A DNA stretch of 64,000 nucleotides from Panaeolus papilionaceus (lineage: Eukaryota > Basidiomycota > Agaricomycetes > Agaricales). Position 1 is the first letter of the stretch. The number at the start of each line of letters is the position of its first letter. Position numbers and translations under genes: made by a program. Shown piece after piece: positions 9,988 through 46,145 of the stretch. The stretch lies in the NCBI GenBank assembly GCA_015501605.1, contig JADNRZ010000005.1, positions 2,170,001-2,234,000 on the forward strand, given 5' to 3'. The notes under the pieces are model-generated. The model saw only the letters and a program-made list of their open reading frames with translations, made no database searches and was not told the origin of the DNA.

Positions 9988-11309
9988 TTGGGAATAGTGA
10001 AGGTTATGATCAGAGTGTGGGACGCGTTTAAATTGGCTGAGGCCCAGGGTTTAAAATAGGTAATAATGCTGTGCCGACCACCTTGATTTGATGGCGGTCG
10101 GTTGGACTCGAGCCAACACACCCGGGGTAGCACAACATGGATCCTGTTTTTCCTCTCGAAATATTTGAACACATTATATCTCACATAGCCTCGAGCTCAG
10201 ACAATCACTCTAGGAGCAACTCCCGAGACCTTTATTCATGCAGCCTTGTTTGTATGGCTTTCGTTCCTTTATGTCGGACGCACCTCTTCAGAGACCTCAC
10301 TGTCGCTCTGGACACACCCAAAGACATACAGAAACTTGGGAAATTGGCACAGCTTATTACCAAGAACCCTTCTTTGAAGACCTACCTACAGGGTATCACC
10401 TGCGATCCGCGAAGATCAGGGCGCGGGGTCGAGGGAGATGATAAGGAATCGGACGAGTATCATCTAGAAACACTCTTGTATCTTCCAAACATACATTCCC
10501 TCGCTATACATAACGACATGCAGCCTGTCGACTACAACCATTGTAGTCCCGATATCTTTGGATATCGTTCTCTCATCGAACGATACCTTCACTCAGGAAC
10601 ACTGACGCATATATCGCTCAGGGGGATTACCAATATCCCTCTTCTGCCTCTGCTCTCTTGCCCAGAATTGAGAGAGGTTTTGCTCGAAGCAGTAACTCTC
10701 GTACTCTGGAAGCAAGAAGAGCTACTTCCTGCTCACGAACGATGGGCTCTCAGACAACTCTGGGTCGAGGACGTAATCAATTTTCCCCATTCAATTATTA
10801 AAATTCTCTGGCAACTCGAAAGCCTTTGTGTATCCGGTCCCGAAGCGCTGAGCGGTGTTCCATCGGGTCTTCTTCGCCTACCAACCACACCAGTGCAGTT
10901 CCAAAACCTCGAAACGTTGATAGCCTGTTCTGGGGTAGATTGGAAAACACTGTTATCTGTTGAGAAACATCATGCTGATGTCAAAGCATTCCTGTCAGTA
11001 AAAACGCTTGTGGTCGAGCTAGAGCGAGAAGTTGACCTCCATGGGGGAAATGCTATTTTCGATCATCTCCAGGTGTTGCAAACCCTTCAAGTTACCGGTA
11101 TGGCGCCTCACTGGTTTGTTCCAGCGATGAGTAGCTAATTGTTAATTTTTTAATATTCTAGTAACGCCGTCGATGGACACACGACTTCACGCTCTAAGGT
11201 TGGACAAGTGCCTTGCTGATATGCATCACACATTGAAGGATTTCACCTTCGAAATCGAGAAAGGCGACTTCTCGCAGACAATCATTGCAACGATCTGTCA
11301 ATTTTTGAC

Positions 11310-13831
11310 TAGGGCTGCGCACCGTGACCGTCACTACGGTCCTACGGGAACCGTAACGGGTGACCCGTACTGTACCGTCGTTGCTTTTTGAGCGTCAAAG
11401 TACGGCCGCAGAGCTTACGGCTGTAACCCGTAGCTGACCGTTCAGAAACGGCCGTAGACGGTTACTGACGGCCGTGACGGGTTGGTTGATCTAGGCGCGA
11501 GACACACCGTAGAGATAACTGTTGCCTAGATAAATGTCATTTAATATGACATCCACTTGTAAATGAGGTGCAATCATGGGTAGTTGTCACTGCCAACTAC
11601 CATGGATCTCTGTAGTTTAAACACGCACATGATGCAAAATGACCATCTAATTCCTTGTTATTTTACTACCCAAGGTTAGATACAAGGAGCAGGCCTCCAG
11701 GTGTATGACTTCAAAGGGTTCCCCACGTAAAAGTTGTCTCTTAGCATCCCAGGTTCAATGAAAGCATTTTGTTTAAATGCACATAAATTTTAACATTACT
11801 GGTCATCAAATAATTTCTTTAAATCCCCCCAGGAGTCGTTAACCTTTCGAATGAAGTCCAGAAGTTGTGACCATAGCAGGTGCACCTGGACCTCCTGATG
11901 CTTTAATATCTTCATATTCTGCCCCTCTCACTGGGGTGGCAGTGCTAAAACCAGTGCTAAAACCCTCGACATCAGGTCACTCGGATTAAGTATGATCAGC
12001 TGTGGCAGTGGAGAGAATATTCTCGGGTGGTCGAGATACAATCTCACTTAGGCACAAAAACCTCCAACCTTCATCTATCCATAAATTTACAATAAACATG
12101 TTTTTCATTCTATTTAATGTACCCGTTCACCCGTAACGGACGGCAAGACCCGTAATTTTACCCGTCCCGTACCGTCGTCGTTCGAAAAAAATCCAACCCG
12201 TACCGTAGGCGGTCAGATATCAAACGGGTTACGGCCGTTGGTCTACATCAGCAAATTCTGATTTTTTCCCATAGCTCCACATAGCGTGTGAGCCATCACC
12301 TGTAGTTCACCACTTGGCACTGTAGCGTGCTGTAGCACTGTAGCACTCCAGAGTGTTATGTCATTTATCAGAGACAATACAGATTTTTCTTATAGTAGTA
12401 TGGAGCCATTGGTAGTTGGCCCCTATTCATTGATGTGCATCCTGAGCATTAATTAATAATTATAGAGTTTTGGATTCCATTCTAAATAAAAACAAGTTGA
12501 TAGTTATCATTTAATATATAAAGCCAGTACCCCAATATAGTTTGCATGAGCTTAAGTTAAATTTCGGGCACTTGTTTTGTAGTAATTATGAGTGGTGATC
12601 TTATATATTTCTGTGCTGGGGCCTGAATGATCATTACCCAAGCTACCAAATAATAATTAAATAATTGACATTTATATAAGCTATTTTAAAAGCAAAAATA
12701 ATGATTCACCGCATATCATCTTAATTTTATGAGGACTTGTTTCAAAATATCATTTCTTATTGATGACGAAAACCTCAAAGTCAAAGTTTAAGTGATGTCG
12801 TCACGTTGTGATTGGTGTGATCATGTGATCACAAAAGTCACATTCAAAACCGAACTGTTCGCTTTTGAATGTGATCGTGTGAAAGGATGACAAATCCAGT
12901 CTAAAGAAATGATTTGTGGTTTGTTCTCGAAAACTCCAACATTTTCTCCTTCAACCACCACTTGCACCGCACTTCATGTGTTAGCCTTGCTTCACAACTG
13001 ACAGTTGGGTTAGTTTATGTCTTATCATGGTGTAAAGCATACAGCTGACTGTAATTTCACAGCATATCATTGGGAACACGGGCATTTAGTGATGAGGTGG
13101 CAGCATTGGGGCATTCTGGTATGTTCCCTTGCTCTCGTTTTTTTTGTTTTTTTACTTATTTATCCTACCTGGACAGTAATTCTGAATCGTTTTATTTCTC
13201 CTCTCACCCTCCACCTCCCTATTTACTCTTCTGTCTCAGGCTTCCCTCCCTCCTTCAGCCTGATCTGCCATTTCTCAATTTACCCTATACCCGCCAGGTA
13301 ACATGTAAGTGGTCTTCGTTATGCACATGTTCTGATACTCATACTTCTCTTTTCTACAGTTTGCCATAGTATATCCTTTATAGGTTTGGAACATCATTCC
13401 CTCTAGTTGATTTGCGAAGATTTTCTATTTTATTTTATTTTTTGTAGATACTGCAGTCACTTTTATTATTTCACACTCGTATTTTTGATGTATTAGGTAG
13501 TTTGTGAATATATATATTTATTCTAATTTTTATCGCTTGTGTCGGTTGTGTTGTATTTCAAAATCTAAGTGCCATTTTAACAACAGAAAATTGCACCCTA
13601 TAATCCAGACCCACTTCGGTAGTGTTCTGTAGCCACCTTATAGCACTCTGTAGCACTCTGTAGCACGAAGGGGGCGCTACGTAACACTACAGATATATGG
13701 GAGAGTGCTACGTAAAGGGGTACCCTTGCTACAGCACTACAGGGCTATGTAGCACTACGTAGCACTCCGTAGCCCTGACAGGGTTTGCTGATGTACGGCC
13801 GTCACCCGTTACGGTATGGTGCGCAGCCCTA
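11310..13831. mobile_element. Non-autonomous hAT-like transposon with nested element
   Basis: Ends are perfect 14-bp inverted repeats, TAGGGCTGCGCACC, flanked by 8-bp direct repeats TTTTTGAC (11302-11309 and 13832-13839). TAGGG-type ends with 8-bp duplications are diagnostic of the hAT superfamily. Near both ends there are many copies of CGTAACGG and the palindrome ACGGCCGT, likely transposase-binding sites. No transposase is present. The original element was about 970 bp; the rest (12246-13793) is a second transposon inserted in it. Confidence 0.85.
12246..13793. mobile_element. Small CATCAGCAAA-ended element nested in hAT
   Basis: Starts CATCAGCAAATTCTG and ends with the complement TTTGCTGATG, flanked by TA on both sides (12244-12245 and 13794-13795). 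Its right terminus is closely similar for about 100 bp to the left terminus of the 13.3 kb element next door, and its left terminus resembles that element's right terminus, so it is a 1.5 kb internally deleted relative in inverted orientation. It has no intact gene but keeps a palindromic block around 12800-12880 that resembles the divergent promoter of the large element. Subterminal GTAGCACT repeats are dense on the right side. Confidence 0.75.
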
Positions 13832-13945
13832 TTTTTGACGTGCACATCAGCAAACCTTGTCTGGGCTACGGAGCACTACGTAGCACTACGTAGCGCTGTA
13901 GTGCTGTAGCAAGGGTACCCGTTTACGTAGCCATCACTGGGCGCT
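13690..13945. repeat. Inverted repeat formed by two abutting transposon ends
   Basis: The last about 100 bp of the small element and the first about 100 bp of the large element are near mirror images, separated by 51 bp holding the hAT end and a few host bases. Both arms are rich in GTAGCACT and its complement. The DNA could form a long hairpin. Confidence 0.7.
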
Positions 13946-14313
13946 GCGTAGTGCCGAGTAGTGGACCCTGGTCAATCAGTAGCACTTCGTAGTGTCCCCA
14001 TGTCATTCCGTAATGCTCCAATGCTCTCATGGCGGCATTTGTATTGATCCCGACATACTTGGGAGCTCTCCGGAGTTGTGGGTGTGTAATCCAGATGACC
14101 ACCTATATCCTTTGAAGCTCTCCGAAGATGTCACCTGTGCTTATTGATCCATTGCCAACAGTACATACTTCGAAAACCAGCCATTAGTAGACCAAAATAA
14201 GCAGTATTATCATTATTTATGAGGTACTATATAACATCAATTCAACTATTGAGAACTACGCAAGGAGGAGAGAGAAAGTGGATAAACGGTCGCAAGAGTG
14301 AAAAAATTATAGT

Positions 14314-17300
14314 CTAATCCAGGTCAATGGGAATAACCCTTCCATTAGGTTCTTCGACAGGTTCAAGCAATGCCCTGATTGCGAATTCGTTAGACGTCTT
14401 CATGCACATTATAATTAGTAATCACTTACATTCCCGCTGCAGCCCAGCTACGTCGCAAGTTAAGCAATTTTTTCCCATGGTATTCATCATCGTGCACCTT
14501 TTCAATTGCTTTTACTAAGTTGCCATAGGTGCCCATATAGCCCTTGGCGTCAAAAGGAAGATTCCTTTGTCTGCCAATGGCGAGATATTCCTCAAGACAG
14601 GCTACAATCTACAGCAGATGAGACAGAATTAGTTAATGAGTAAAAAACACATACAGCTGTTGCAACCAGAGCGATGACTCTAAGAGGTACTTCTTGAGAA
14701 AAATCATCTGGGAATGAACGTGCGACTGCATCAGGCTTGCCATAGAAGAATTGTTGAATGACATGACCAATGCATGGATGAGCGAAGTTATTGGTTTTTC
14801 CCTACAGTATTTCAAAGAAGTATTAGTCAACAGCCAGAGTTGACAACAAAAGAAAACGATGAAAAATACCAAGCTATCCTTTTCAAGACCATGGTGAAAA
14901 GTTCCATCATCCAACATTGTCTTCACTCTTTCAATGACAGCATCAAATACGGCCAATTGATTTCCTTCGTATTCGTCAGGTATGACATCCTTGTAGAACA
15001 TTGGGATAATGGGGCGAACATAATCTTTCAATTTTCCTCGGAACGTGGACGCCTCCTGAAATATCTGTGGAATCTCATTAGTGAAAAAATGAATGAAAAA
15101 AACAATATCATGAAGCGTTGTACCAGAATCCACATGTGACGATTAACCTGGAACTCTAAAATACTGATTAGTATAGGTAGGATAGTTTAAAAATAGGCAT
15201 ACCGTCATTGAACACAACACCTTCATTTTTATAATGAAGAAGACGGGCGTTGAGAATTGCCTTGACAAAATGGATGTCATTTTGACGCGAAGGCCACGCA
15301 TTACCAATAGCCAGATTACGGCGCCAATGCAGCTTGCTCGAAGCCAAGGCCATCTTCCACGGACCATGATAGAATGCTAGGGTGGTAGGCGAGCGTATGC
15401 CAGAGTGACATGAATTCCTTGGTGCTCTTTTAGGGCGGTCATCGGTGTCGTCATCTTCTTCGATTTGAGCACCTTCATCCTCGTCATCACGGTCTTCATC
15501 AACAGCTTGTTCCCCAAATGGATCTTCCTCGACGTCGCGGATAAGACAGTTCAAGACATCTTGTTGGTGGGCAACTTCGGCAAGGTGTTCTTCTCGAGGA
15601 GGACGGCGAGCCCGATTTCGGGCACGATAATCATCAAGAACGTCAATTTGCTTGGAGGGCATGATAAATGTTAGATCCCAATATTAATTGAACAGTACTC
15701 ACGTCATTAGGGACAGGCGTGTTCAATGGCTGCTCATTCCTGGCTAAGAGTAAGAGGAGTGAGCAAAAATAGATCTTGAACGAGGTATGTAAAGACAAAT
15801 ATACATACCAGCATCGTCAAGGACATCGTCATTATTCTCATAGTCCTGGAAGTTCTCGTCCTCGTCGTGCTGGATGTTCTCGTCCTCGCCGTCCTGGATG
15901 TTATCGTCCTCGTCCTCGCCGTCCTGGATGTTATCGTCCTCGTCCTCGCCGTCCTGGATGTTCTCGTCCTCGTCCTCACCATCCTGGATGTGCTCGTCCT
16001 CGTCGTCCTGGATGTTCTCATCCTCGTCCTGATGCTCCTCATTGTCCTGGTTGTAATCAAAGTCGTCTACAGACACAAGGGTCAGGCAGACGAAAAATGG
16101 AATAAATAGAATACTAGTCACCACTGAATTCATATGGTTTGTACATGTCATTATGTGTACGTCCCCCATCCCAGTTGACTTCTTCGCATTGCATAGTGTT
16201 TTCGTCGTCGTTTTCGTCATCGTTTTCGGACTCTGAATCTGGTACTAAATATCGCCGCCCAATTCTCTTGTGCATTACTTCTGCCTTCCTCTGGCCTGGG
16301 ACGAGCTTGCGACCTGCTAGAGATATAGACTTATAAGTAGGTATAGATGAACAGATGAATATGCTGACCAATGGGATCATGCGTGACTGTGTTCTCATTA
16401 TTGTCCTCATGAGTTGAAGTATGTGTGGTGCGCGTTGCTTCAATATTTTGGCAAGGGCCGGTTACTGGTGTTCCGAGTTGGTGAGAGGATGTGCCTGAGG
16501 GTTGGCGAGAGGTGTGCGACAGGTCAGGTATTTGTGATGAAGGAGGCGGTGGAGCAACTGTTGATTTCGAAGGTACATTGGAAAACGGGTTGATGGATGT
16601 CAAGCCTGTGGTCATTCTGTTACCAGGAGGTGCACTGTTCTTCTGTATGGCGAGTTAGGCTGGCGGAAAAATGAAAGTCAAGAAGTCACACCTCGGCAGG
16701 GAGAGCAACTCTCTGCTTCTTAGCAGGAGGGGCCATGCTGTTGACTGGTGCGTCCTCTGGTATATCAAACAAATCAGCATCCACAGTAGCGCTTGGTTTG
16801 CGTTTATGTCTCTGCATGTTCGCCATGGTGCGCATTAAATCCCCCCCAATAACCTCAGAGTCCTTGTTCAGTTTGTCGATGCGACTGACTCTCTGACGTT
16901 TCGGACGTCCCGGAAGATCATTGGCGGCGATGACATTTGCTTCATCACTGTGTCGCACTGCTGGATTGGCTGCTCGTTGTTGATATCCTAAAAATATCGT
17001 TAACAAGGAATTTGTCAGATGGTGGTATGATACTCACCATCCGCAGTAGTGGATAGAGGACCAGGCCTTGACTTCTGTCTCGCCCTTTTGTCCACAACTC
17101 TAGTAGCATCAGCTGGCAGGTTTTGAGAAGCTACCGGTTGATTTTCTAAGGGAGTTCCTTCAAAAAAAGAAGCGAAAATGGGCGCAGAAAAAAAAGAACT
17201 TGCCTTTATCCACCTGGCGTTTACGGAGAGCAGAACCTGTTGTGGTAGATACAAGAAGTTTGAGTACAGCTACCTCTAAAACGGGTCTGTACTCACCTTT

Positions 17301-17378
17301 CGGTGCACGGGGTGCTTGTGCACTCTTTGTAGGATTAGTAGGCGGGTTTTCCTTGTGACCAGTAGACTTTTTAGCCAT
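14314..17378 (-). CDS. DUF6532-like protein with acidic repeat
   Basis: Fourteen exons join in one frame (2337 nt, 778 aa): 17378-17297, 17236-17204, 17157-17038, 16987-16692, 16642-16369, 16316-16122, 16066-15809, 15743-15703, 15650-15203, 15155-15148, 15064-14870, 14801-14655, 14608-14430, 14374-14314. Exon 2 ends at a GC donor (GCAAGT) and exon 10 is only 8 nt, so that joint is the least certain. The protein starts MAKKSTGHKENPPTNPTK, has basic segments suggesting nuclear localisation (GRPKRQRVSR, PPAKKQRV), then tandem acidic repeats, then a C-terminal region matching the pattern of DUF6532 of Agaricomycetes (FRGKLKDYVRPIIPMFY, FAHPCIGHVIQQFFYG, FPDDFSQEVPLRVIALVATA). The molecular function of DUF6532 is unknown to me. 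It is the left-most gene inside the large transposon and has no frame lesion. Confidence 0.78.
15830..16050 (-). repeat. Acidic-coding minisatellite in DUF6532-like gene
   Basis: Tandem units of about 24-30 nt in coding phase encode variations of DGEDEDDNIQ repeated roughly seven times. Unit boundaries keep the reading frame, so copy number changes would lengthen or shorten the acidic tract without breaking the gene. Confidence 0.8.
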
Positions 17379-17642
17379 GATGAGTTAGTGTTTCGAGGGT
17401 AGGGTTCTTGAGTTAATTAAGAAAAAATACGTTGGGTTGAAGAAATGCATTGGGGGATGTGTTGGAACCATATTTATGTTAGGCGTACCCTGAACCATCC
17501 CTGACTTGGAGTTACGCATTTGGGGATCATTGCAGAAACTCAGAGAACATTGCGAACCTGACTCAGCGCAACCAAGGAAAATAGCCTCTAAAGTGAAGTT
17601 CAATTGAAATGCAAGAAAATGACGACAAACATTGAATTATAA

Positions 17643-18133
17643 CTAATCCAAAACTATAGAAATGGGGTGTCCTTCCTCTCCAGCAATTGTTACTGTGTCT
17701 ATGAAAGTCATGAATTGAAGAGGACAAGGAGGACATAAAAACACTCACTAAAAGATTGAGTAACTTGATAATTAATAGGGCACGGTTCGATGGAGACTGG
17801 TATCCTATATCCTGATGCGCCAATAGCATAGTACAATCGCCCAAGCTGAAGATCCAGAGTAGCCAGCCTTTGTTCAACCTGACGAAGGGCATCAACTGCA
17901 ACTTTGAGTTGTTGGACTATGCCTTGCTTTTCCTCAAGGTGCTGTTCCCGCAGTGTCTGCGCAGCAGACAGCAATTGAGTGACATCATTCTCGCTTCGTA
18001 AAAGGAATGGCTCGCACTGCAGTTATAACAGTAAGAGAATGAAATACGCCACATAAACGAAAACGATACTTACCAGTGATTGATCAACAGAGCAGTCATG
18101 TGGGAGCGTGCTATTTGGCGCGCTGTGGGCCAT
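17643..18133 (-). CDS. Small coiled-coil protein, transposon cargo
   Basis: Three exons, 18133-18074, 18016-17749 and 17698-17643, join in frame (384 nt, 127 aa). The start MAHSAPNSTLPHDCSVD is chosen because the first exon ends at a good donor (GTAAGT). Residues about 30-85 form an amphipathic helix likely to be a coiled coil (VTQLLSAAQTLREQHLEEK onward, then LRQVEQRLATLDLQLGRL). No known domain is recognised. It lies between the DUF6532-like and JmjC genes on the same strand inside the large transposon. It might help the other element proteins assemble, but that is only a guess from position and the coil. Confidence 0.6.
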
Positions 18134-18502
18134 ATTGAGGTAATAGATACAACTTGAATCCATGAAAATGGTAAGTTCTTTCGGTCTCACACTGATGATC
18201 ATACATACGATAGTATACACAAAGTTTTGTCACAGAAATGTGGTAGTACAAGGGGGTTGGTGGGGGAGATGAGGGAGGTTCAGCGATGATGGCGTGGGAT
18301 AAGCTCGCAGTTCTGGATCAAGATGGTACATCACATGATTCAATGATGAGTTTTAAAGCCTGACATGATAATAATATATATCTGATTCTCAGTCAGACAT
18401 GCGCTCGAGGCTCAAAAATTCAAGTCTAATAACATTGTTAAAAATATTGTGTAGGAAATCTGCTTTGGTATACTAGATCACAATGACAAAATTAAGAAAA
18501 TA

Positions 18503-21500
18503 TTAAGAGGTGCGCATTTTTTTATGCCGCCTTGATTCGTCTAAATCCTCTGTGTCTGGTGGAAATGTGAGTTTGATTACGACTTTGATGTACTTCCAAA
18601 CCGCACCTGACATAGCATATGTATCCCATTCATCCCATTCTGATACGCCAGTTGAATCCCAGTTTAGGTCAAGTTCTGCATCGCTCTTGCCCATCGACAT
18701 AATCTGCTCTAAGTCTGCTTTATCTAAGTGAGATATTCATCGAGGGTGAGCGAGATTAAATACCTTTCAATATGTAAGTCCCTGGATCGCTCCTTCTTTC
18801 TGCATGCCACGTATCTGTGAAAATAGGGCCATATGTGATGCAGTGGTTCTTGTCCCCGGTCACAGTGATTTCCTTTGACCGCGTACAATAACCTTGGTAA
18901 ACAGAGTTTGGAATATCACCCACACTGAAAGTTTGGCGGATGTATTCCGCAAAATGAAGGGGATTACACCCAGGTGCGCCATCAATCTGAGCAGATTTTG
19001 CACAGCGCTGATAGCAAGCAACGTCTGCCAAGAACTGGCCCACAGCAAACAAAATGTCATTGTAAGACTGTTGCTCCATGGTTCCGGTCGGGCTCGGTTG
19101 TCTAGTTTCAACGCTAATGACATAGTGGTGATCCAGCCATTCCACCATGGTATAGGCTAGCCCACGAACATAAGCGTATTGCTCTCGTTCATGCCTGGTG
19201 AGCGAACTGATGTCAAACCCAATGGTACCAGCAGCACCACAATCGTATGCCTTGAAGTCGAAAAGGATCATTGTTATCCCAATGAGACATGCGACCAAGA
19301 AATCCTGGCAACCAGAAGCTGATTCTAGGATTGGGAGATGCTGAAATTCGTCCGCTATACAGGTTCAATTGGTGAAAAAAAAGAAAAGAAAACTGAAACT
19401 CACATTGACGATGTACACCTTGTTTGATGAGACCGGCATAAAAAAAGCTGAGAATACGTTGTAGAGCCGGTCTTGAAGCTGGTGTATTGCTATTGGTGAC
19501 GGCACCATCGGCGTTGAAGCAATGAACCAAAGCCCTCATGGTATCAGTCAGACAAGTCGTATTGTAAAAATAGCCACCAGCGACAATTGTGTGATCGACA
19601 GTGATGACGACGTGTCGGGTGTTAGGCCGCATGAGCCTGTTCCATGATAAGAATTTTCCGTAAGAAGGTTCACAAAAATTAAATACTCACAGCATCGTAT
19701 CCTCTGTTAGGAGAAAAGCCTCGTAGGTAAAAAGATCAGGACGCGGTATACTAGCGTCGAAACCTTTTTGCAAATGTATAAATTCTGCGGTATCTTCAAC
19801 ACCCTCCTTAGGCGTTGCGATAATCCACCATTTTGCCCCAGTTCGGATATGAAGAAATGTGGCGAAGCCGTCATTGTCGATGTGTACCCAGTGCACACCA
19901 CCCTTTGTTGTAACAAGAGCCCACCTGAGTTTGCTTATAGGGAACTCTTCGCCTCTTGGACAGTTGAGTTCCCCCATGGCCATACGCCAGCTGACAAGGT
20001 CTGTCATAAAGCAACTCTCTTCAAGCATGGCAGTGGGCATGGGAAGGTCTAGTGCGTTGAGGATCTTTCCATTCTCCATGTACGCGCATTCGAGAACTTG
20101 TCCCAGAGTACCAGACCTTAAGCGCTGACCAAGCGACTTGGGCCCACATTTGATCGAGTGGTCTTTAAATGCGTAAGAAATCATTGAATGCATAGAGGTT
20201 ATTTTACATACCGTGAATGTCCACAGGGTGGTCAACACGTTGAACCTCTTGTAGCGCAGCTAAGTTGAAGGTTCGTCGTTTTCCTGGAACATTTTTGACA
20301 ACGATGTTCTGCTTTAATTCCTGTAGCGTATGTTGAACGAGAGAGACATTATGGAGGTCGGAGTAATCCATAATCGCAAAGACCGATGTAGCGGGTTCGG
20401 CGAGCCAACGTGGCTGAGGAACACCGTCTTTGATAACATAGTTATCTTCCACAGCCTTGTGCCACTCGCCAACCCGACGACAAACGAATGCTTCCTATTG
20501 GGGGTTTTAAGTAGATGAGTAATGCATGGATTGGAATATTTGTTAGTTCGAACATACATGGAAGTCCAGTTGAATATCTCTCCGACAGCCATTGATGTCA
20601 ACAACGCCCATGGTTAGACTATAGTTCTATGGAGAGCGCTCAAACCCCAATAACATCTGTACCTCAAAACAATACTTACTTTGGGAGCGGGGACAACACA
20701 GAGAGTAATGTCTTCAGTTTGTGTCTAGCATTCGATAGTTAGTATTGAATATGTCGAAAATAATAATAATGGAAGTTACCCATCGACGCTGGGCTGCCTC
20801 TTTGATAGTCGCTAGTTCTCGCTTCAGAATCTTGATTGGGTCCGTGAAGTTTGTTTTAGGACCCCGAGATGCATTGATCTGCACAGTCCGGACAGCGGAA
20901 CGATTACCTGGCTTGCGTTTCTTTGTCGATGCAGTGGAACGCGGTTTTGGACGCAGGCTTTTACGACGCGGTCTGCTACCCTCCTTGCTCGCGTCTTGTG
21001 GCTTGCCTTGCTCTTCATCGTCTTCGTCTTCATCGTCTTCGTCTTCATTTGCGTTCGCGTCTTCATCGTCTTCGTCTTCACCCGCACCCGCACCCTCATC
21101 CTTATCCTCACTGTCGCCTCCTCCATTTCTGTCCTCGGTCTCCATGTTAACTGTGTCATCAGGCTCTTCATCTTGCCTGACATCTCGGTTGTCGTTGTTC
21201 TTCTCCTTGCCGTCGCCTTTTGCCTCCCCACCGCCTTGCGCATCTTCAGACTCGTCCTCGCCCACTGGGTCCCCAATGAAACCTAACGTTCCACCCATCG
21301 TAACATCGACCCCGTGAGTATCATTTTTGTCATGTTCCATGCAGCTTGACTTATCCCGTCCCTGGTTTAACCCACCATCGTGGGTGCTGTCTCGTTCCTG
21401 CGACGCTAAATTGTCTAGGCGGGCACCGCATTCTCCCAGCTGCCCTTCGTGAGCACGCATCTGATTCTGGGATAATCCCAACGACACTAATACCTCCACG

Positions 21501-23016
21501 CCAGCATCATCGGGGTCGGACTGTGAGGAATTATTCACAATTCCATGGTTTGCCTGCTGACGTGGATGTTCAGAATGAAAAACGAAATTTAGATAAGTAA
21601 GAAATACCTCAATATCATGAAGAAGGTCAACGTCCATTTGTTCACCTATCTCCGCTGGGCCGGGTGTAGCGCCAGGCGCCAAGCATGCTAGGTAAAGTCA
21701 AATCTGTCAGTTTCACACAGTTGGACATAAATCAGAGTAACGCACACAAATCAAACCACGTACGAATCCCGGGCGGTGCTCTTGCAAGATCATCCCAAGG
21801 GATTTCTTTGACCAAATGGCGCATTGCATCCTGGAGCGTGGTCTCATGTTTGAAAACGGAGAAAAAAGCTTTCCAAATTATCTTCTCTACGCGGAGGAGG
21901 ATTTCCGGCTTTGAATTTCCTAGCCTCAAAGAGTACTGTAAACAATGAGCATGTTGCGAGTTACCCATGTTCAAGAGGAATACGTACTTCGAGAAGTGAG
22001 TCTCGCTCCCATGTGTACTTAAAAATTCGGAATAGGGATAACAGAAAAACTGGTGAGATGAGCACCGCGAGATGCAGCGGTAGGCGAAAACCGTGCGCTT
22101 TGATGATGTCTGGGTCTTTATCGGATGTTCTAAAACTGGGTTGAAAAAAAAAAAAAAAACAACAGCTGATCGGAAAATCTCTTACCTGCTATCGTCAATG
22201 CGGGTGAACGTCTTCAGAGAGAATGAGGAATCCCAGTCTGGGAGCATTCCGTCAACATGTTCTTCTTGTAGGTAGGACAAGTGGATGATCGCAACATGGA
22301 AGTTTGATACAAAGACAGCGTTCTCGACCGTTTGGTATAAAATTTTGAAGGCATTTACATGTGACGAATAACCAGATTGGGGTGGCAATATTCCGGGTAC
22401 GATGTCTGAGTCAGTTAGGGATGCGAGTGCCAGCATTTTGTCCTTCCAATCATAAAGGACTTGAACCCAGTCCTGTACCCGCCTGGTATACTATAAACGA
22501 TTAAGTGATCAAACCCAATCACATCAACAAAACAAATACCATTTTCTGTGCATATCCCGCAATAATTTTGGGCATGTATTGGCGCTCATGGACAATGTGA
22601 GTCCTCTGCAGAGTAGAAAAATAGCATGCGAGGTCAAAGAGGCGAAGTGCCACAATTAACGAGCAGCGCTTATCGCGGGTGGGTTTTGTGGCATGACCGA
22701 CGTTTGCGCCCCGATTTACGATGTTGTTGGGGTCTTGTAGTAGATCCTTCAGTGATTGAGAGTTGAAGTCGATGGAAGGGGTGTTTACAATGAGCGCTTC
22801 ATAGCGTTTTATACACTGAGAAAGTCTCTATATTCCAAAGACCAGTTGCCATGTTAGTCCAGGGCTTGAAATTAAAGAACTGGGATGGGGATCACTCACT
22901 GATAGATTGAACTCAGTGGGATTATATATATCAGGTGCATTTCCGTGGGACCATGCATCACTTAACCATGGGTAAGCCTCTAGCGAGAGGAAAGCCTCAC
23001 GAAATGTCTTCGACAT
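18503..23016 (-). CDS. JmjC-domain protein, transposon cargo
   Basis: Fourteen exons join in one frame (3801 nt, 1266 aa): 23016-22900, 22827-22540, 22490-22186, 22135-21988, 21935-21764, 21687-21608, 21556-20780, 20724-20680, 20626-20558, 20494-20212, 20162-19691, 19636-19404, 19354-18764, 18723-18503. The N-terminal third is helical with no domain I know. The middle is very acidic (Asp/Glu runs) followed by a basic Arg/Lys/Ser/Pro stretch that may be a nuclear signal. The C-terminal half is the mushroom-type JmjC cupin: ISKLRWALVTTKGGVHWVHI precedes the HxD iron motif (WVHIDNDG), GAKWWIIA supplies the lysine expected to contact 2-oxoglutarate, and MRPNTRHVVIT provides the distal histidine. 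JmjC proteins are Fe(II)/2-oxoglutarate oxygenases, often histone demethylases; the substrate here is unknown. The gene is divergent from the transposase gene and shares its upstream region. Confidence 0.85.
20995..21110 (-). repeat. Low-complexity acidic tract in JmjC gene
   Basis: Repeated GAC/GAA/GAT codons on the minus strand (CGTCTTC-type repeats on plus) encode a run of Asp and Glu. It is simple-sequence DNA inside an intact exon, probably prone to length change. Confidence 0.75.
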
Positions 23017-23429
23017 GTGATCTAGAATTAGACGGAATTTGGGTCAAACGTCATGATATCCTGTTTCGTCTCTTGAATAGCACTCACCTTATGACTTGTA
23101 AGCTATTGATGGAGATTAGTGTGAATAGGTAATGGTGAGTATGTCCTAGAGTTGGTAGGCAGAAAATTTGAAACGATTGTCCAAGGTTGTAAATATATTA
23201 TGCGAAAGACTGAGACCGGAACAGTCGCGGTCACTGTGCCAACCTATCACGATCACGTGATCACGTGGTATGTGGTCACGAGCAAAAGCGAACTGATCGC
23301 TTTCGCCCCTGACTCCATGTCCCCAATGTCTAATCGATCATCGAAGTCAAACATGTATGGACAACAACCAATAGTCTGCATATTCTTCATCACTTCCCAC
23401 TCTTACCACAATCATAAGACCTCGTCACA
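23017..23429. promoter_or_regulatory. Divergent promoter between JmjC and transposase genes
   Basis: The 413 bp between the two divergent starts holds a palindromic block at 23250-23310: GATCACGTGATCACGTG (overlapping palindromes with an E-box-like CACGTG core) followed by AAAGCGAACTGATCGCTTT, an exact 7-bp inverted repeat around 5 bp. A possible 5' UTR intron of the JmjC gene lies near 23025-23091 (GTGAGT...TTCTAG). Related motifs occur in the small element at 12800-12880. I infer a shared control region for both genes, possibly including the transposase's own binding site. Confidence 0.5.
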
Positions 23430-26400
23430 ATGCCAACATCCTCCGCTTCTAAGAAATTCCCCTGTTTACGATGTGGGAAGTTATTCGAAAGTGAAGCCAA
23501 CGCTGCCAACCACATGAATCAACCACGAGCACTGTGTCGCTACACACATGAAAATGTCATACATTTCAACGAGATTGAGCAAGATAAGAGAGATAGTCCG
23601 GGTATGGAACAACTTACACCAGTACCACTATCGAATTGACGCTGTACCAACAGAACCTCATTCTCCTGACGTGTCGAACACAAACAACTTGGAGTATCCC
23701 GACGCAGATGCTGGTCCTTACTCTGAATCAATGGAAGGGATTGAAGAAGGACCACAACTTGGACCCTCAATTTTTAGTCACCCAACACCTCAAGAGCGGA
23801 CTCAATCTCTGCACCGCGAGGACTTTCCTTTGGAGGGAGCCCATCGCACCTGGAACGAAACTCACCCTGGAAAGACATTTATGGCACTTTTTGCGGAGGA
23901 TCCACTTTCAAGCGCTCGCGAAAACCTCCCTTACTACCCCTTCTCAACAAGAACCGAATGGGAAGTCGCGTCATTCCTTTTGCAATCGGGAATGAGTATG
24001 GCAAAGATTGATCAATTTCTAAAGCTCGAAATGGTGAGCCCTTTGTATGTTCATAGCATGCCACATTGGCTTATATCTATAATGTCAGATCAAGGCACTC
24101 CCCCTATCGTTTAGAACCTCAAAAGATTTATTCTCGCGGGCGGAGCAACTTCCTAGTGGTCCCCGTTGGGTAGCATCTTCTATACCAACGACCGTTCCGA
24201 CTAAAAATACCATCACGTTATATTATCGAAACCCTGTTGAATGTCTTCAGGCTCTCATGCGTAGCCCCTTAGTGAGCGATTATATTCAATTCACTCCATT
24301 TAAGCTTTATGAAACATGTGCCAAAACGATGAGAGTGTATACAGAGTGGTTGTCTGGGGATGCAGCCTGGTTCATGCAGGTGAGATATCCCCTGATATAT
24401 TTTGAATCGGCAATTTACTTGATCAAAAGGAAAAGTTACAACCAAGTGCTACTCTCCTAGGCACCATTTTATCGTCTGATAAAACAAATATATCTGCTGG
24501 TACCGGAAACCGTTATGCTCACCCACTTCTTATCTCCCTTGCAAATATCGCTGCAGAATTTCGGAACAAGGCCACCAACCATGCCTTCCTTCTACTTGCG
24601 TTGGTACCTATCCCTAGATTCATCCACCCACAATCAAAGATACGGGGAGTTTTAGAAGCTCGGCTGTTCCACGAGAGTCTAGATTTGGTGCTCCATCCTC
24701 TTAAAGAAGCTGCTCGTGTTGGTGTTATGCTCTCAGATCCCTTTGGAAACAGCCGCTGGTGCTTTACGCCCTGCGCAGCCTACATTGTTGACACACCCGA
24801 GTCAGCGCTCATAGCATGTGTGGCCGGTAAAACATCATCGATAACTACAGCCTCCTTCAAGCAGTTTGGAGACGCCCAGAAACATCCAATGAGGACTGGC
24901 CAAATGACATTGGATGCTTTAGCCAAAATTCAAGCCATTGTCGAGGATGAGTGGGACCTACAGCTTTACGAAAAGGAGGCGATGAAGTATCGGTTAAATG
25001 GTGTACATAAACCCTTCTGGAGGGACTGGGACCTTTCAAACCCTGCTGTCTTTCTGACAAGTGAACCCCTCCATCATTGGCACAGGATGTTTTGGGATCA
25101 CGATGTCAAATGGTGTATTAATGCAGTTGGAGCAGCCGAAATCGACTTTCGTTTTTCGATTCTTCCGTCGCACACAGGATTTCGACACTTCAAGGAAGGA
25201 ATCTCGTCACTCAAGCAGGTTACGGGAAGGGAACAACGTGATATTCAGCGCTACATTATTCCAGTTGTTGCAGGTGCATTACCATTGGATTTTTTGACAG
25301 CCATCCGATCACTTTTGGACTTCCGATACTTCGCCCAAGCACCTGTAATTTCAGATGATATTTGTCGCATGATCGATGAGTCTCTCTCTATCTTTCATCA
25401 GTTCAAGAAAGCTATCATCGACGCAGGTGCACGCCAAGGGGAAAAGGGCTGGAAGCTTAACCATTGGCAGATACCAAAGCTGGAGTTCATGCAGAGCGTC
25501 ACAGCAGGTATTCGACTCAGCGGATCTGCAATTCAGTGGTCCGCCGATACCACTGAACATGCACATATCGAGCTGGTCAAAGAGCCGGCCCGAGCATCAA
25601 ACCAACAGAACTACGACCCCCAAATTGTTCGGCGCCTGGATTGTAAAGACAAGGTTATGAATTTCGACCTAGCTACCGCCATGCGCGATGCTGGAGTTGA
25701 GTTCAAAGACAAGGCTTCATCAGCACCCCAACAGTCAACAGGTGATGATGACCAGGATCCTGGAAAGGACTTGGACTCCTCAGATGCTTCTGACACGGCG
25801 AAGCTTACAATTGGTACCACTGCTGAACTCTTATCTTTGATCTCATCTGTTCGCGCTCTTCCTGGATCACATGCAGGCTCTGCAGGTATCAACACATATA
25901 ACATCACCAATTACTTTTACAAGGCATCCATCCTGAAAAAGGGGCTTGATGCTTCTGCAAAGGTTCCATATCGTACGGTTCAGAACTCCTCTACAACTGT
26001 CTTTCATCTTTCCCGGGATCCGCAAATGGGTATCTGCACCATCGGCGATATCAGTCAGCAGTTTGGCATAGAGGACTTGGGATCAGCAATTTCTCGCTAC
26101 ATCTCAAAAATAGAAGCCAACCATCCAAACACGTTCATCTCAGAATTTAATTCTGGAGCACCTACGCATCATCCTCATTTTATGGCTGATAAAATACAGG
26201 TCTGGACATCACTTCGCCTTCAATCCACTGCCTACCACTATCCTCATCCCATTCAACCACCCGTCACACTGAAAGCTGAACCAGGATTAGGTGGGCATGA
26301 TTCCGCCATTTTTTGTGTTGATTCATCTAGCCAATGGCCATGGAGCAGCCTCTCAGGTGCGTAATCTGACTTAGTGTTTAATTATAGGGCAAGCTTAACC

Positions 26401-26800
26401 TTGACCTCAAGGCCATGTTGTTACAGAAATCCGTCTTATATTTCGTTTGGTGCTTCCCAAGAACCGCTGGCACATCCCAGACAGGTTCCTTGCCTATGTA
26501 CAAAAATATACAATCATTCCCCAGCCTAATCCTCGTAATACTAGGCAGACCGGTGAATTCCCTGATTCATGCACAGGACTCTACCTTTTGAAGCGATCTG
26601 CACCACAGCAACCCACCTCTGCTGTATATGGGGACATTATTCCCCTTGATCAACTGCGTGCTCTTGTGGACGTTGTGCCAAACTTTGGTGGGAAGGCAGA
26701 TACCCGGCTGACATGCAAGAACAGTCTGGCATACAGCCGTGAATTTTGGCTCAACAAGTACTTCAACAAAGAACTCTTTTATGCGTTATCATTGACTTAG
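23430..26800 (+). CDS. Plavaka-family transposase, intact
   Basis: Exons 23430-23601, 23654-24033, 24089-24379, 24430-26356 and 26427-26800 join in frame (3144 nt, 1047 aa). The N-terminus has a C2H2-like finger (FPCLRCGKLF ... NHMNQPRALC), as is usual for Plavaka. The body shows family hallmarks: LYYRNPVECL, VYTEWLSGDAAWFMQ, TLLGTILSSDKTNIS, HRMFWDHDVKWCI, AAEIDFRFS, ISSLKQVTGREQRDIQRY, QWSADTTEHAHI, and a C-terminal DUF6830-like region ending near ADTRLTCKNSL and FWLNKYFNKELFY. Plavaka transposases catalyse cut-and-paste movement of CACTA-like elements in Agaricomycetes. No stop or frameshift is seen, so the element may be autonomous. Confidence 0.92.
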
Positions 26801-27138
26801 ATTGCCTACTACATACTAGTACCCTACCAATTGGCCACTATTTGTATAAGACTGGGTATAGCTACTACAGAATAGTACTATGATTCTTTTAAGTAATGGG
26901 GCACTCTATGCGGCATAATGCACTGTAACAAATAAGTGGCATCATAAGACTACCGAGGTGCCATGGATCCTACCAAGGTACTGGGGGGTCTACCTTACAC
27001 TCTGAAGCTCGCACAGCATTCAACGTAACGCTCCAGAGCACTACCAGGCTACAGCTTGCTACACCAGCCAAGGTGAACACTACAGGCGTGACGTGACTGC
27101 TATACGGGGCTACTGTCCAAAAACAGAATTTGCTGATG
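26801..27138. other. Right subterminal region of large transposon
   Basis: Non-coding DNA after the transposase stop. It contains degenerate copies of the CTACAG/GTAGCACT-type repeats seen at the left end and terminates in TTTGCTGATG. No gene is visible. Confidence 0.6.
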
Positions 27139-27296
27139 CAGTCCACAATACAACCTCGAAAACTTGGAAATATCGCTATCATTCAGCTTATACCGCCCCG
27201 ACGAGATAAGGAAGGATTACACGGAGTGGACAAAACTAGCCAATGTGTTGCTGGATCGAGTCAGGTTCCCCTGCCTTCAATTTGTCAACCTGAAGG

Positions 27297-27612
27297 CACT
27301 GTGAACCCAGCTTGGGGGGTTTTCACCCCTTTTAGTTGTACATAAGATATTCACCCCCCTTGAAGGGAGGTTTTGAGAGGGGCTTTTTAGGGGCTTCATA
27401 CATCACTCTTTCTTTGAGCGTTAAAAACCCTACATTACAATGAGGGTTTTTGGTCACAAGCAAGTCACAAGCCACCACCCCCTATGATAGGGGGTTATGC
27501 GAGATTTGAACCCTCCTTCGGAGGAAGATATTTACTCAAAATAATTTTTTTTTTCCTATTTATCGGTAGAGGGCAATGTGCCCCTCTTATGTCAAAGGGT
27601 GATTTAACAGTG
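27297..27612. mobile_element. Short CACTG-ended repeat (MITE-like)
   Basis: Begins CACTGTGAACCCAGCT and ends with GGGTGATTTAACAGTG, giving imperfect inverted ends that start CACTGT. The inside is AT- and G/C-run-rich with several small hairpins and no coding potential. The start sequence recurs at 29700-29715. It supplies the stop codon that truncates the broken F-box gene. I could not find a clean target duplication, so the boundaries are tentative. Confidence 0.45.
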
Positions 27613-44970: not shown

Positions 44971-46145
44971 CATCAGCAAAAAAACGGGCTGTAGATCTGT
45001 GATATCAGCCAATGTCTAGTCAATATCAGGCTGTGATGTGGCGGCGACAGAAGTCTAAGTCTGCCCACCCAGCTGTGGGCTTCAATCTGAGATCAAACGT
45101 CAACCTGATATTAAGTCCCAATCTGACATCTGCTGAACTAGTGACGTCTGATTATACTACACATACCTATCGAATAAGTGCAACAAGAGAGAAATAAAAA
45201 GATTTTTCTTTTTTGGAAGGGTTCACCCAGCCGCTCATTCCACATTTGCGTTGAATAACACCAGCAATGTAAATTGAAATTTGCCAATGCAAGGAATCGA
45301 ACCCAAGCGTTGACTAACACCACAGATTCTATAGCGATGAACCCACTAGTCCAAGAAGCCTTTGTTACTTTGCAACAGCAAAGGAAATATATGAACAACC
45401 GCCTCGCTCATCCCTCAAACTTCGAACTTCGAAGGCGTGGGATCTAGCCTCCTCCAAGAAATCGGACGTGATAATATTTATTACCGCCTGTATTTTTGAC
45501 TAGATAGACACTCATTTCCATAATTTAATCCACTTATCATTAATGAAGTATAGATAATAATTATGTTGAAAAAAAGTTGGCCTTCAATGGGTCTATGTGA
45601 TCCCAACCTGACACACTCAATATCAATCAGATATTCGTCTGATGTGTATACCTCAAGCTGAGTTCACGGTCAGTGTATGATTACAAGCAGAAATTAAGCA
45701 GACAAGATGGCGCGAGACTGAGATGTGTGTGATATACAGACTTCAATCTGAAATTAACATAATACACAACTGACAACTAGACAATCGATAGTCTGTGAAA
45801 TTTCAATGTGATGCCAAACTGATATGCCAGTTTATGCCTGATATTCAGCTAGTATACATTATTTATCTTAAATTTGCATAGATATGTGGAGTCTCTTCAG
45901 GTTTTAGATAATCTATGGGTTATCAGACTGACAAGTGACATAACAGGTTATAGTGTTCCGACATTTGACTGAGAGGGCATGGGCAAACTGAGATCCCTCA
46001 TAAACAAAGACTCTATCATGACGTGACACAGCTATGCACAACTTCGTACTGTAGTGTTGTATCGGAGAATGATATATACCATATCAAGCTGATATTTACA
46101 TTTCTACGACAGTTCGTAGATCTACTATCAATTTTTTTGCTGATG
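44971..46145. mobile_element. CATCAGCAAA-ended element in F-box gene
   Basis: Ends are perfect 14-bp inverted repeats CATCAGCAAAAAAA, with GC directly repeated outside (44969-44970, 46146-46147). The inside is AT-rich with many copies of CAATCTGA/CTGATAT-like motifs near both ends and no transposase. The ten terminal bases and the 2-bp duplication match the Plavaka-type elements at 12-27 kb, though the subterminal repeats differ, so it is a separate subfamily. Confidence 0.75.
45282..45360 (-). other. tRNA-like (SINE-like) segment inside element
   Basis: On minus, GGACTAGTGGG resembles a Pol III A box and GGTTCGATTCC, about 45 bases on, is a good B box. The stems do not fold into a proper tRNA, so I read it as a tRNA-derived repeat (SINE-like), not a functional tRNA gene. 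Confidence 0.35.

Follow-up and report, generated by a model that had tools for sequence, protein, structure and literature searches.

The window analysed here, a stretch of 64,000 nucleotides of Panaeolus papilionaceus DNA (G000:C45:2170001-2234000), contains at positions 13845 to 27138 an element of 13,294 bp which, by its Plavaka domain, its termini and its 2-bp target duplications, is a complete PlavakaB-type DNA transposon. It carries genes for a transposase, a JmjC-type oxygenase, a DUF6532-family protein and a small coiled-coil-like protein. The preferred reading, with a probability of about 0.6, is that of a PlavakaB transposon with a standing four-gene set, whose JmjC-type protein would be KDM2/KDM7-like and would strip the chromatin of its own element of repressive histone methylation. 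The unit moves, with a conserved oxygenase gene that is exchangeable with TET/JBP, as was observed in copies compared inside this one genome (contigs are given as C with a number).

Identity between the window element and a second copy, split over three contigs (95.0-96.8%), began exactly at 13845 and stopped exactly at 27138. The same limits had been proposed in an earlier note on this DNA from inverted ends flanked by CA, and both ends and both CA target duplications (13843 to 13844 and 27139 to 27140) were read in the sequence. The ends are CATCAGCAAA at 13845 on the plus strand and TTTGCTGATG up to 27138, and they diverge after the first ten bases. The B end (13845 to approximately 13944, plus strand) passes from CATCAGCAAA into GTAGCACTAC-type subterminal repeats, and the same end type was found in other copies; the A end (27019 to 27138, an extent set for the search) reads CATCAGCAAATTCTGTTTTTGG on the minus strand and has another subterminal sequence, continuing TTCTGTTTTTGG. 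PlavakaB elements are defined by 5'-CATCA..TGATG-3' termini and 2- or 3-bp target duplications, with a transposase of the D..E type (PMC12730594, accessible part). The window element has these termini, and its transposase scored 297.4 bits for the Plavaka domain (Pfam cut-off 26.3). Further marks of PlavakaB are C(2)C and H(3-4)H motifs and a position among PlavakaB in a tree of transposases.

Matches to the transposase, JmjC and DUF6532 proteins co-occurred at many places in six-frame searches of the genome. In nine JmjC-carrying copies both ends were read, with the duplications CA (window), TA (C17), CT (C67), AC (C56:2100737-2114060), TG (C31), AA (C4), AA (C14), CA (C7) and TG (the split copy). 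C4 and C14 have flanking bases in common and thus represent one duplicated insertion, so that the nine copies correspond to eight sites. Matching 2-bp duplications were present in all 11 copies with both ends read (one split over contigs, two at one site) and varied from site to site, and ends arising by chance were rejected on this count. The terminal regions of C17 and C67 were 99.8% and 99.6% identical between unrelated flanks; identity set in at CATCAGC and extended 3-4 bp beyond TGATG. A mobile Plavaka unit with a JmjC-type gene and companion genes, as the earlier note had proposed, is borne out by these copies at unrelated sites. The split copy was joined over C32, C61 and C26 by its common TG duplication and by ends 95-97% identical in DNA; long JmjC matches on C61 were mostly 90-93% identical in protein, and one short match was 76% identical. 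Insertion of a TET-carrying Kyakuja element into the split copy is suggested by KDZ fragments on C32 and C61 and by a Tet_JBP match, also on C61.

A search of the genome with the 120-bp A end returned 10 places, nine of them in JmjC-carrying copies (one linked across contigs by inference). Neither of the two outcomes that would have spoken against the earlier note, the JmjC and DUF6532 genes at the same place without transposon ends in sister strains, or their lack in all other copies together with host synteny, appeared within this one genome. The A ends of TET-carrying sister elements, described below, and of a neighbouring non-autonomous element (12246 to 13793) were too divergent to be listed, and the proportion therefore holds for window-like A ends. 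Around the tenth A end (C67:1713956-1714071; 84%) the genome search lists showed no match to JmjC, DUF6532 or the transposase, a context which suggests a truncated or non-autonomous copy; remnants were also seen on C30. At 11 further Plavaka places (28-32% transposase identity) no JmjC or TET match was seen nearby in the genome search lists, read by eye, and the oxygenase is thus a trait of this clade and not of Plavaka at large. A distant JmjC match at C24:453199-453528 (30%), with a weak match to the Plavaka transposase 1.4 kb away, is possibly part of another old Plavaka-JmjC pair.

The insertion site was also reconstructed. The window element and a hAT-like non-autonomous element (11310 to 13831; 972 bp minus its insert; 8-bp duplication TTTTTGAC) interrupt a host coding exon on the plus strand, and in-silico excision of both, keeping one duplication each, restored an open frame. 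Its left part, from the first Met of the joined frame and with one TTTTTGAC included, lies at 11173 to 11309, its right part, to the stop, at 27141 to 27301, and the bases GTGCA (13840 to 13844) stand between the right duplication of the hAT-like element and the Plavaka element. The joined frame had nine genome matches: two were its own halves, four spanned the insertion point without stops at 37-42% identity (C4:567628-567906, at 40%, and C45:2123044, 2140765 and 2142703), and three spanned it more weakly (29-30%). That nested or segmentally duplicated DNA merely mimics a unit gains something from the bases common to C4 and C14 beyond the element, by which one of the nine copies came from duplication of a larger segment; it is nevertheless exceedingly improbable, as identity was lost at the ends both between C17 and C67 and between the window and split copies, the 2-bp duplications vary by site, and the host exon is rejoined across the insertion site.

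Gene limits in the window came from simple splice models, in which a lesion can be hidden by intron choice; within this bound all four genes gave complete frames, in agreement with the earlier note. The transposase gene (23430 to 26800, plus strand) has the five exons described there and encodes 1047-1052 amino acids in two models, with Pfam Plavaka (E = 1.7e-88) and DUF6830 (E = 7.4e-30) domains and, read by eye, a zinc-finger-like motif at the N-terminus. The JmjC-type gene (18503 to 23016, minus strand; 1272 amino acids) was modelled with 13 exons instead of 14, and the exons of its catalytic core lie at 19404 to 20494. The small coiled-coil-like gene (17708 to 18163, minus strand) has two exons and a homologue in the TET-carrying sister elements; its length, noted earlier as 127 amino acids, was modelled at 122-132. 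The DUF6532 gene (14314 to 17378, minus strand; about 740-765 amino acids) belongs to the family suggested for it (Pfam E = 1.9e-25), and has the 14 exons first counted in one model and 15 in the other; the end of these models is probably wrong, because an open frame at 14426 to 14608 matches relatives better. In the models for C67 and C56, homology to the proteins of the window element earned a bonus; the JmjC model of C67 deviates from that of the window at some points, and the coiled-coil model of C56, only 65 amino acids long, does not support intactness there.

The ratio of nonsynonymous to synonymous divergence (dN/dS; NG86) was calculated among the window, C67 and C56 copies, at a dS of 0.9-1.9, near saturation, and on aligned codons in locally similar stretches only, which lowers dN (858-951 of 1241-1280 codons for JmjC; 250-256 of 256-264 for its core). 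It was 0.065-0.068 for the JmjC core and 0.117-0.160 for the whole JmjC protein, 0.067-0.097 for the transposase and 0.167-0.177 for DUF6532; for the coiled-coil gene (53-88 codons), two pairs gave 0.21 and 0.10, and dS was saturated in the remaining pair. The JmjC core was under tighter constraint than the whole protein, and on a par with the transposase. Low dN/dS at such dS means that the gene set is old and was kept under constraint while the elements diverged; the four genes are standing equipment, with long co-inheritance and purifying selection.

A JmjC exon from C26, used as a query, had 28 matches in the genome, nine in Plavaka copies and 19 elsewhere; Pfam named no family for the open frame beside the C26 JmjC gene. 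Six of the 19 (C26:117968, C20:411893, C45:2403426, C6:18814, C45:1296813 and C41:42420) lay 3.3-6.4 kb upstream of a Helitron_like_N (Rep) domain on the same strand, against 0.03 expected under random placement (P about 8e-13). Their proximity and strand suggest Helitron-borne JmjC genes; the C20 and C45:2403426 matches have identical scores and may be one event. Among the other 13, one had a Helitron domain 7.3 kb away on the opposite strand and two lay less than 10 kb from a Plavaka match (distances were calculated to 10 of the 112 Plavaka matches, and the other contigs concerned were checked by eye in the lists). Within 10 kb of the remaining 10 there was no match to Helitron, Plavaka or KDZ domains; host genes may be among them, which gives some room to the proposal that host genes were trapped between transposon ends and are useless to the element. 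Such passenger cargo is very improbable, and was rejected: the gene set is common to copies at a dS of about 1-1.9, the JmjC core has a dN/dS like that of the transposase, and nine of the 10 A-end places carry the JmjC gene.

In sister elements TET/JBP takes the place of JmjC. The Tet_JBP search of the genome gave six matches, one of them above the cut-off. Four had a KDZ transposase domain at a distance of 3.1-3.4 kb, an arrangement known from TET-carrying Kyakuja elements, and two lay inside two more Plavaka elements, C56:2215079-2232323 (duplication TT) and C11:201466-234401 (duplication TA). The gene order in the C56 sister is DUF6532, coiled-coil homologue (35%), TET (37.8 bits for Tet_JBP, against a cut-off of 34.9) and transposase; JmjC had no match in it at E < 1. 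The C11 element was assigned by the position of a match below the cut-off, and was read except for 205029-215823. The two TET sisters were 93% identical in transposase to each other and 63-72% to the JmjC copies, which were 76-100% identical among themselves (C11 covered 252 of 406 positions). A misread TET/JBP gene as the origin of the JmjC assignment was ruled out, as the window element had neither a Tet_JBP match nor a match to the sister TET exon (best E = 0.41; best E = 0.40 against three JmjC elements, no match); phmmer with the same exon against PDB found nothing. The C56 sister is 17.2 kb long, with about 5 kb between the TET gene and the transposase (approximately C56:2223100-2227900) containing proline-rich and arginine/glutamate-rich open frames; the one frame scanned had no Pfam family above cut-off.

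In the predicted JmjC-type protein, the iron and 2-oxoglutarate residues are present: the HxD motif (H864, 19882-19884; D866, 19876-19878), K881 at D+15 (19831-19833) and the distal His936 (19612-19614), all on the minus strand. HxD and the distal His, as claimed earlier, are therefore preserved. The Lys position used for comparison is that of known JmjC enzymes. The H, D and K were invariant across 10 aligned proteins; the distal His was kept in six sequences of one core alignment and was absent from P0010 and P0011, two predicted relatives whose gene models are perhaps faulty (the fungal relatives P0005-P0011 lack genomic context). By sequence profile and by fold, the nearest solved relatives were the KDM7/PHF8/PHF2/KDM2 histone demethylases. 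All six Foldseek matches at E <= 0.001 were JmjC demethylases, the query being a weak model (mean pLDDT 53.6; an earlier model, P0003, with a mean of 30.1, was set aside). No TET enzyme was among the 53 and 6 PDB matches or the best 50 of each fold search, which alone excludes nothing, and a protein search with alignment A1 returned only its own first member.

The protein resembles KDM2/KDM7 (JHDM1/PHF8/PHF2) enzymes in HxD, in Lys at D+15, in the distal His, in a co-linear profile alignment over the JmjC region and, for a weak structure model, in its best fold matches. It differs from them in being transposon-encoded, in having a predicted activity only, and in fold alignments of only 6-15% identity. 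Members of the KDM2/KDM7 subfamily typically have a PHD, CXXC or F-box companion domain; none was found by Pfam in the 12 JmjC-family proteins scanned, the window protein included. An active oxygenase that is no histone demethylase, its hydroxylation being directed at a host target or at some protein or nucleic-acid factor that transposition needs, is unlikely, though far from negligible; against it stand the KDM7/PHF8/PHF2/KDM2 profile and fold matches and the TET/JBP gene, an eraser of a DNA mark, that fills the same slot in the sisters. An Epe1-like protein opposing heterochromatin without catalysis is improbable. In fission yeast, a putative histone demethylase reportedly counters silencing by a non-enzymatic route (PMC7192584, accessible part), and the accessory genes could encode partners; however, HxD and the 2-oxoglutarate-type Lys are invariant in the 10 aligned proteins, and constraint is stronger on the core than on the protein as a whole.

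DNA methyltransferase domains were found in the genome. Over the stretches compared, 18 of 21 differences between C17 and C67 and 77 of 96 between C4 and C14 were of the CpG type. The window and split copies differed by the CpG type at 234 of 320 differences, with the CpG kept by the window copy at 200 sites and by the split copy at 12. When C56 and C67 were used for polarisation, changes from CpG to TpG or CpA made up 100 of 148 in the split copy and 1 of 60 in the window copy (of 361 differences, 127 resisted polarisation and 26 agreed with neither); 40 of the 60 assigned to the window copy were T>C or A>G, which probably reflect CpG losses that took place in parallel in the other copies. 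The observed/expected ratio of CpG was 0.80 for the element, 0.90-0.91 for the flanks in the window and 0.50 for the neighbouring element at 12246 to 13793. As differences among related copies are mostly of the CpG type, the host probably methylates the family. The pattern is read as methylation-linked decay of silenced copies, of which the window copy is nearly free.

Two results weigh against a demethylase that protects its element. Pfam JmjC did not match the window protein, and the best relative reached 13.4 bits against a cut-off of 24; this concerns where a detection threshold lies, and is no feature of the biology. The split copy, in turn, shows by its decay that protection, if real, fails for at least some copies.

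Unlike ends are also paired outside the window element. The neighbouring element (12246 to 13793), a Plavaka-type non-autonomous element of 1,548 bp in opposite orientation, duplication TA, is nested inside the hAT-like element and joins one A-like with one B-like end, so that the pairing is a family trait. At 44971 to 46145 the window holds a short CATCAGCAAAAAA-ended element of a different subfamily, with a GC target duplication.

A 2014 PNAS paper reportedly treats TET/JBP and KDZ transposons. TET/JBP dioxygenases, another Fe(II)/2-oxoglutarate group, have already been described in PlavakaB elements (PMC12730594, Kojima 2025), in whose main text neither JmjC nor DUF6532 occurs. Those elements share with the present one the Plavaka transposase, the CATCA..TGATG termini, the 2-bp duplications and a carried Fe(II)/2-oxoglutarate dioxygenase gene; the oxygenase here is instead JmjC-type, and there are DUF6532 and coiled-coil genes, DUF6532 being unnamed in that main text. 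The same paper places Plavaka TET in a divergent PE type, whereas one TET sister here passes the Pfam Tet_JBP cut-off. In the literature searched, which left most subscription papers outside, no description was found of a JmjC or other histone-mark eraser carried by Plavaka or other transposons. Within that literature, the novelty claimed earlier stands for a JmjC-type gene in Plavaka and not for Fe(II)/2-oxoglutarate cargo, TET/JBP being known already in fungal transposons. A Starship-like cargo element was dropped as a candidate, since the transposase is Plavaka and not a tyrosine recombinase. The VANC proteins of Arabidopsis VANDAL elements are not known to be oxygenases. They are transposon-encoded anti-silencing proteins acting by sequence-specific DNA binding (PMC10398659, accessible part), and are alike in that a transposon protein counters, here putatively, the silencing of its own element. 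HarbingerS and MuDR, DNA transposons of Phytophthora, likewise carry genes for histone-modifying enzymes, namely SET histone methyltransferases (PMC12730594); SET adds methyl, whereas the window enzyme resembles erasers. In Amoebidium, a genome with methylated DNA, JmjC genes were also multiplied by a mobile invader; they are KDM4-like and borne by giant-virus insertions, unrelated to the present element, and Plavaka repeats there are a separate repeat type (PMC11244446, accessible part).

In the mechanism proposed, the transposase would recognise the unlike ends A and B and insert the element, presumably through a cut-and-paste reaction that duplicates 2 bp of the target. The JmjC-type protein would act as a KDM2/KDM7-type histone lysine demethylase, and removal of repressive histone methylation from the element's chromatin would keep the transposase expressed; TET/JBP of the sister elements would do a parallel job on DNA methylation (5-methylcytosine). 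The DUF6532 and coiled-coil proteins may, as a guess, serve in targeting or complex formation. That a JmjC enzyme changes the silencing of its own element, an idea of the earlier note, is plausible, and is better motivated now by the TET slot, the CpG decay and the purifying selection.

The balance tips slightly towards a wider proposal, in which PlavakaB elements possess, flanked by coiled-coil gene and transposase, an 'eraser slot' for either TET/JBP, an oxygenase of DNA marks, or a KDM2/7-like JmjC gene for histone marks, JmjC having also been taken up by Helitrons of this genome; histone demethylases would then be a second transposon-borne anti-silencing class which, like TET/JBP, spreads between superfamilies. 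A family with apparently intact copies, with TET/JBP sisters in the same place and in a host that probably methylates it, is a natural comparison. Which silencing layer a transposon must defeat becomes directly testable in one genome.

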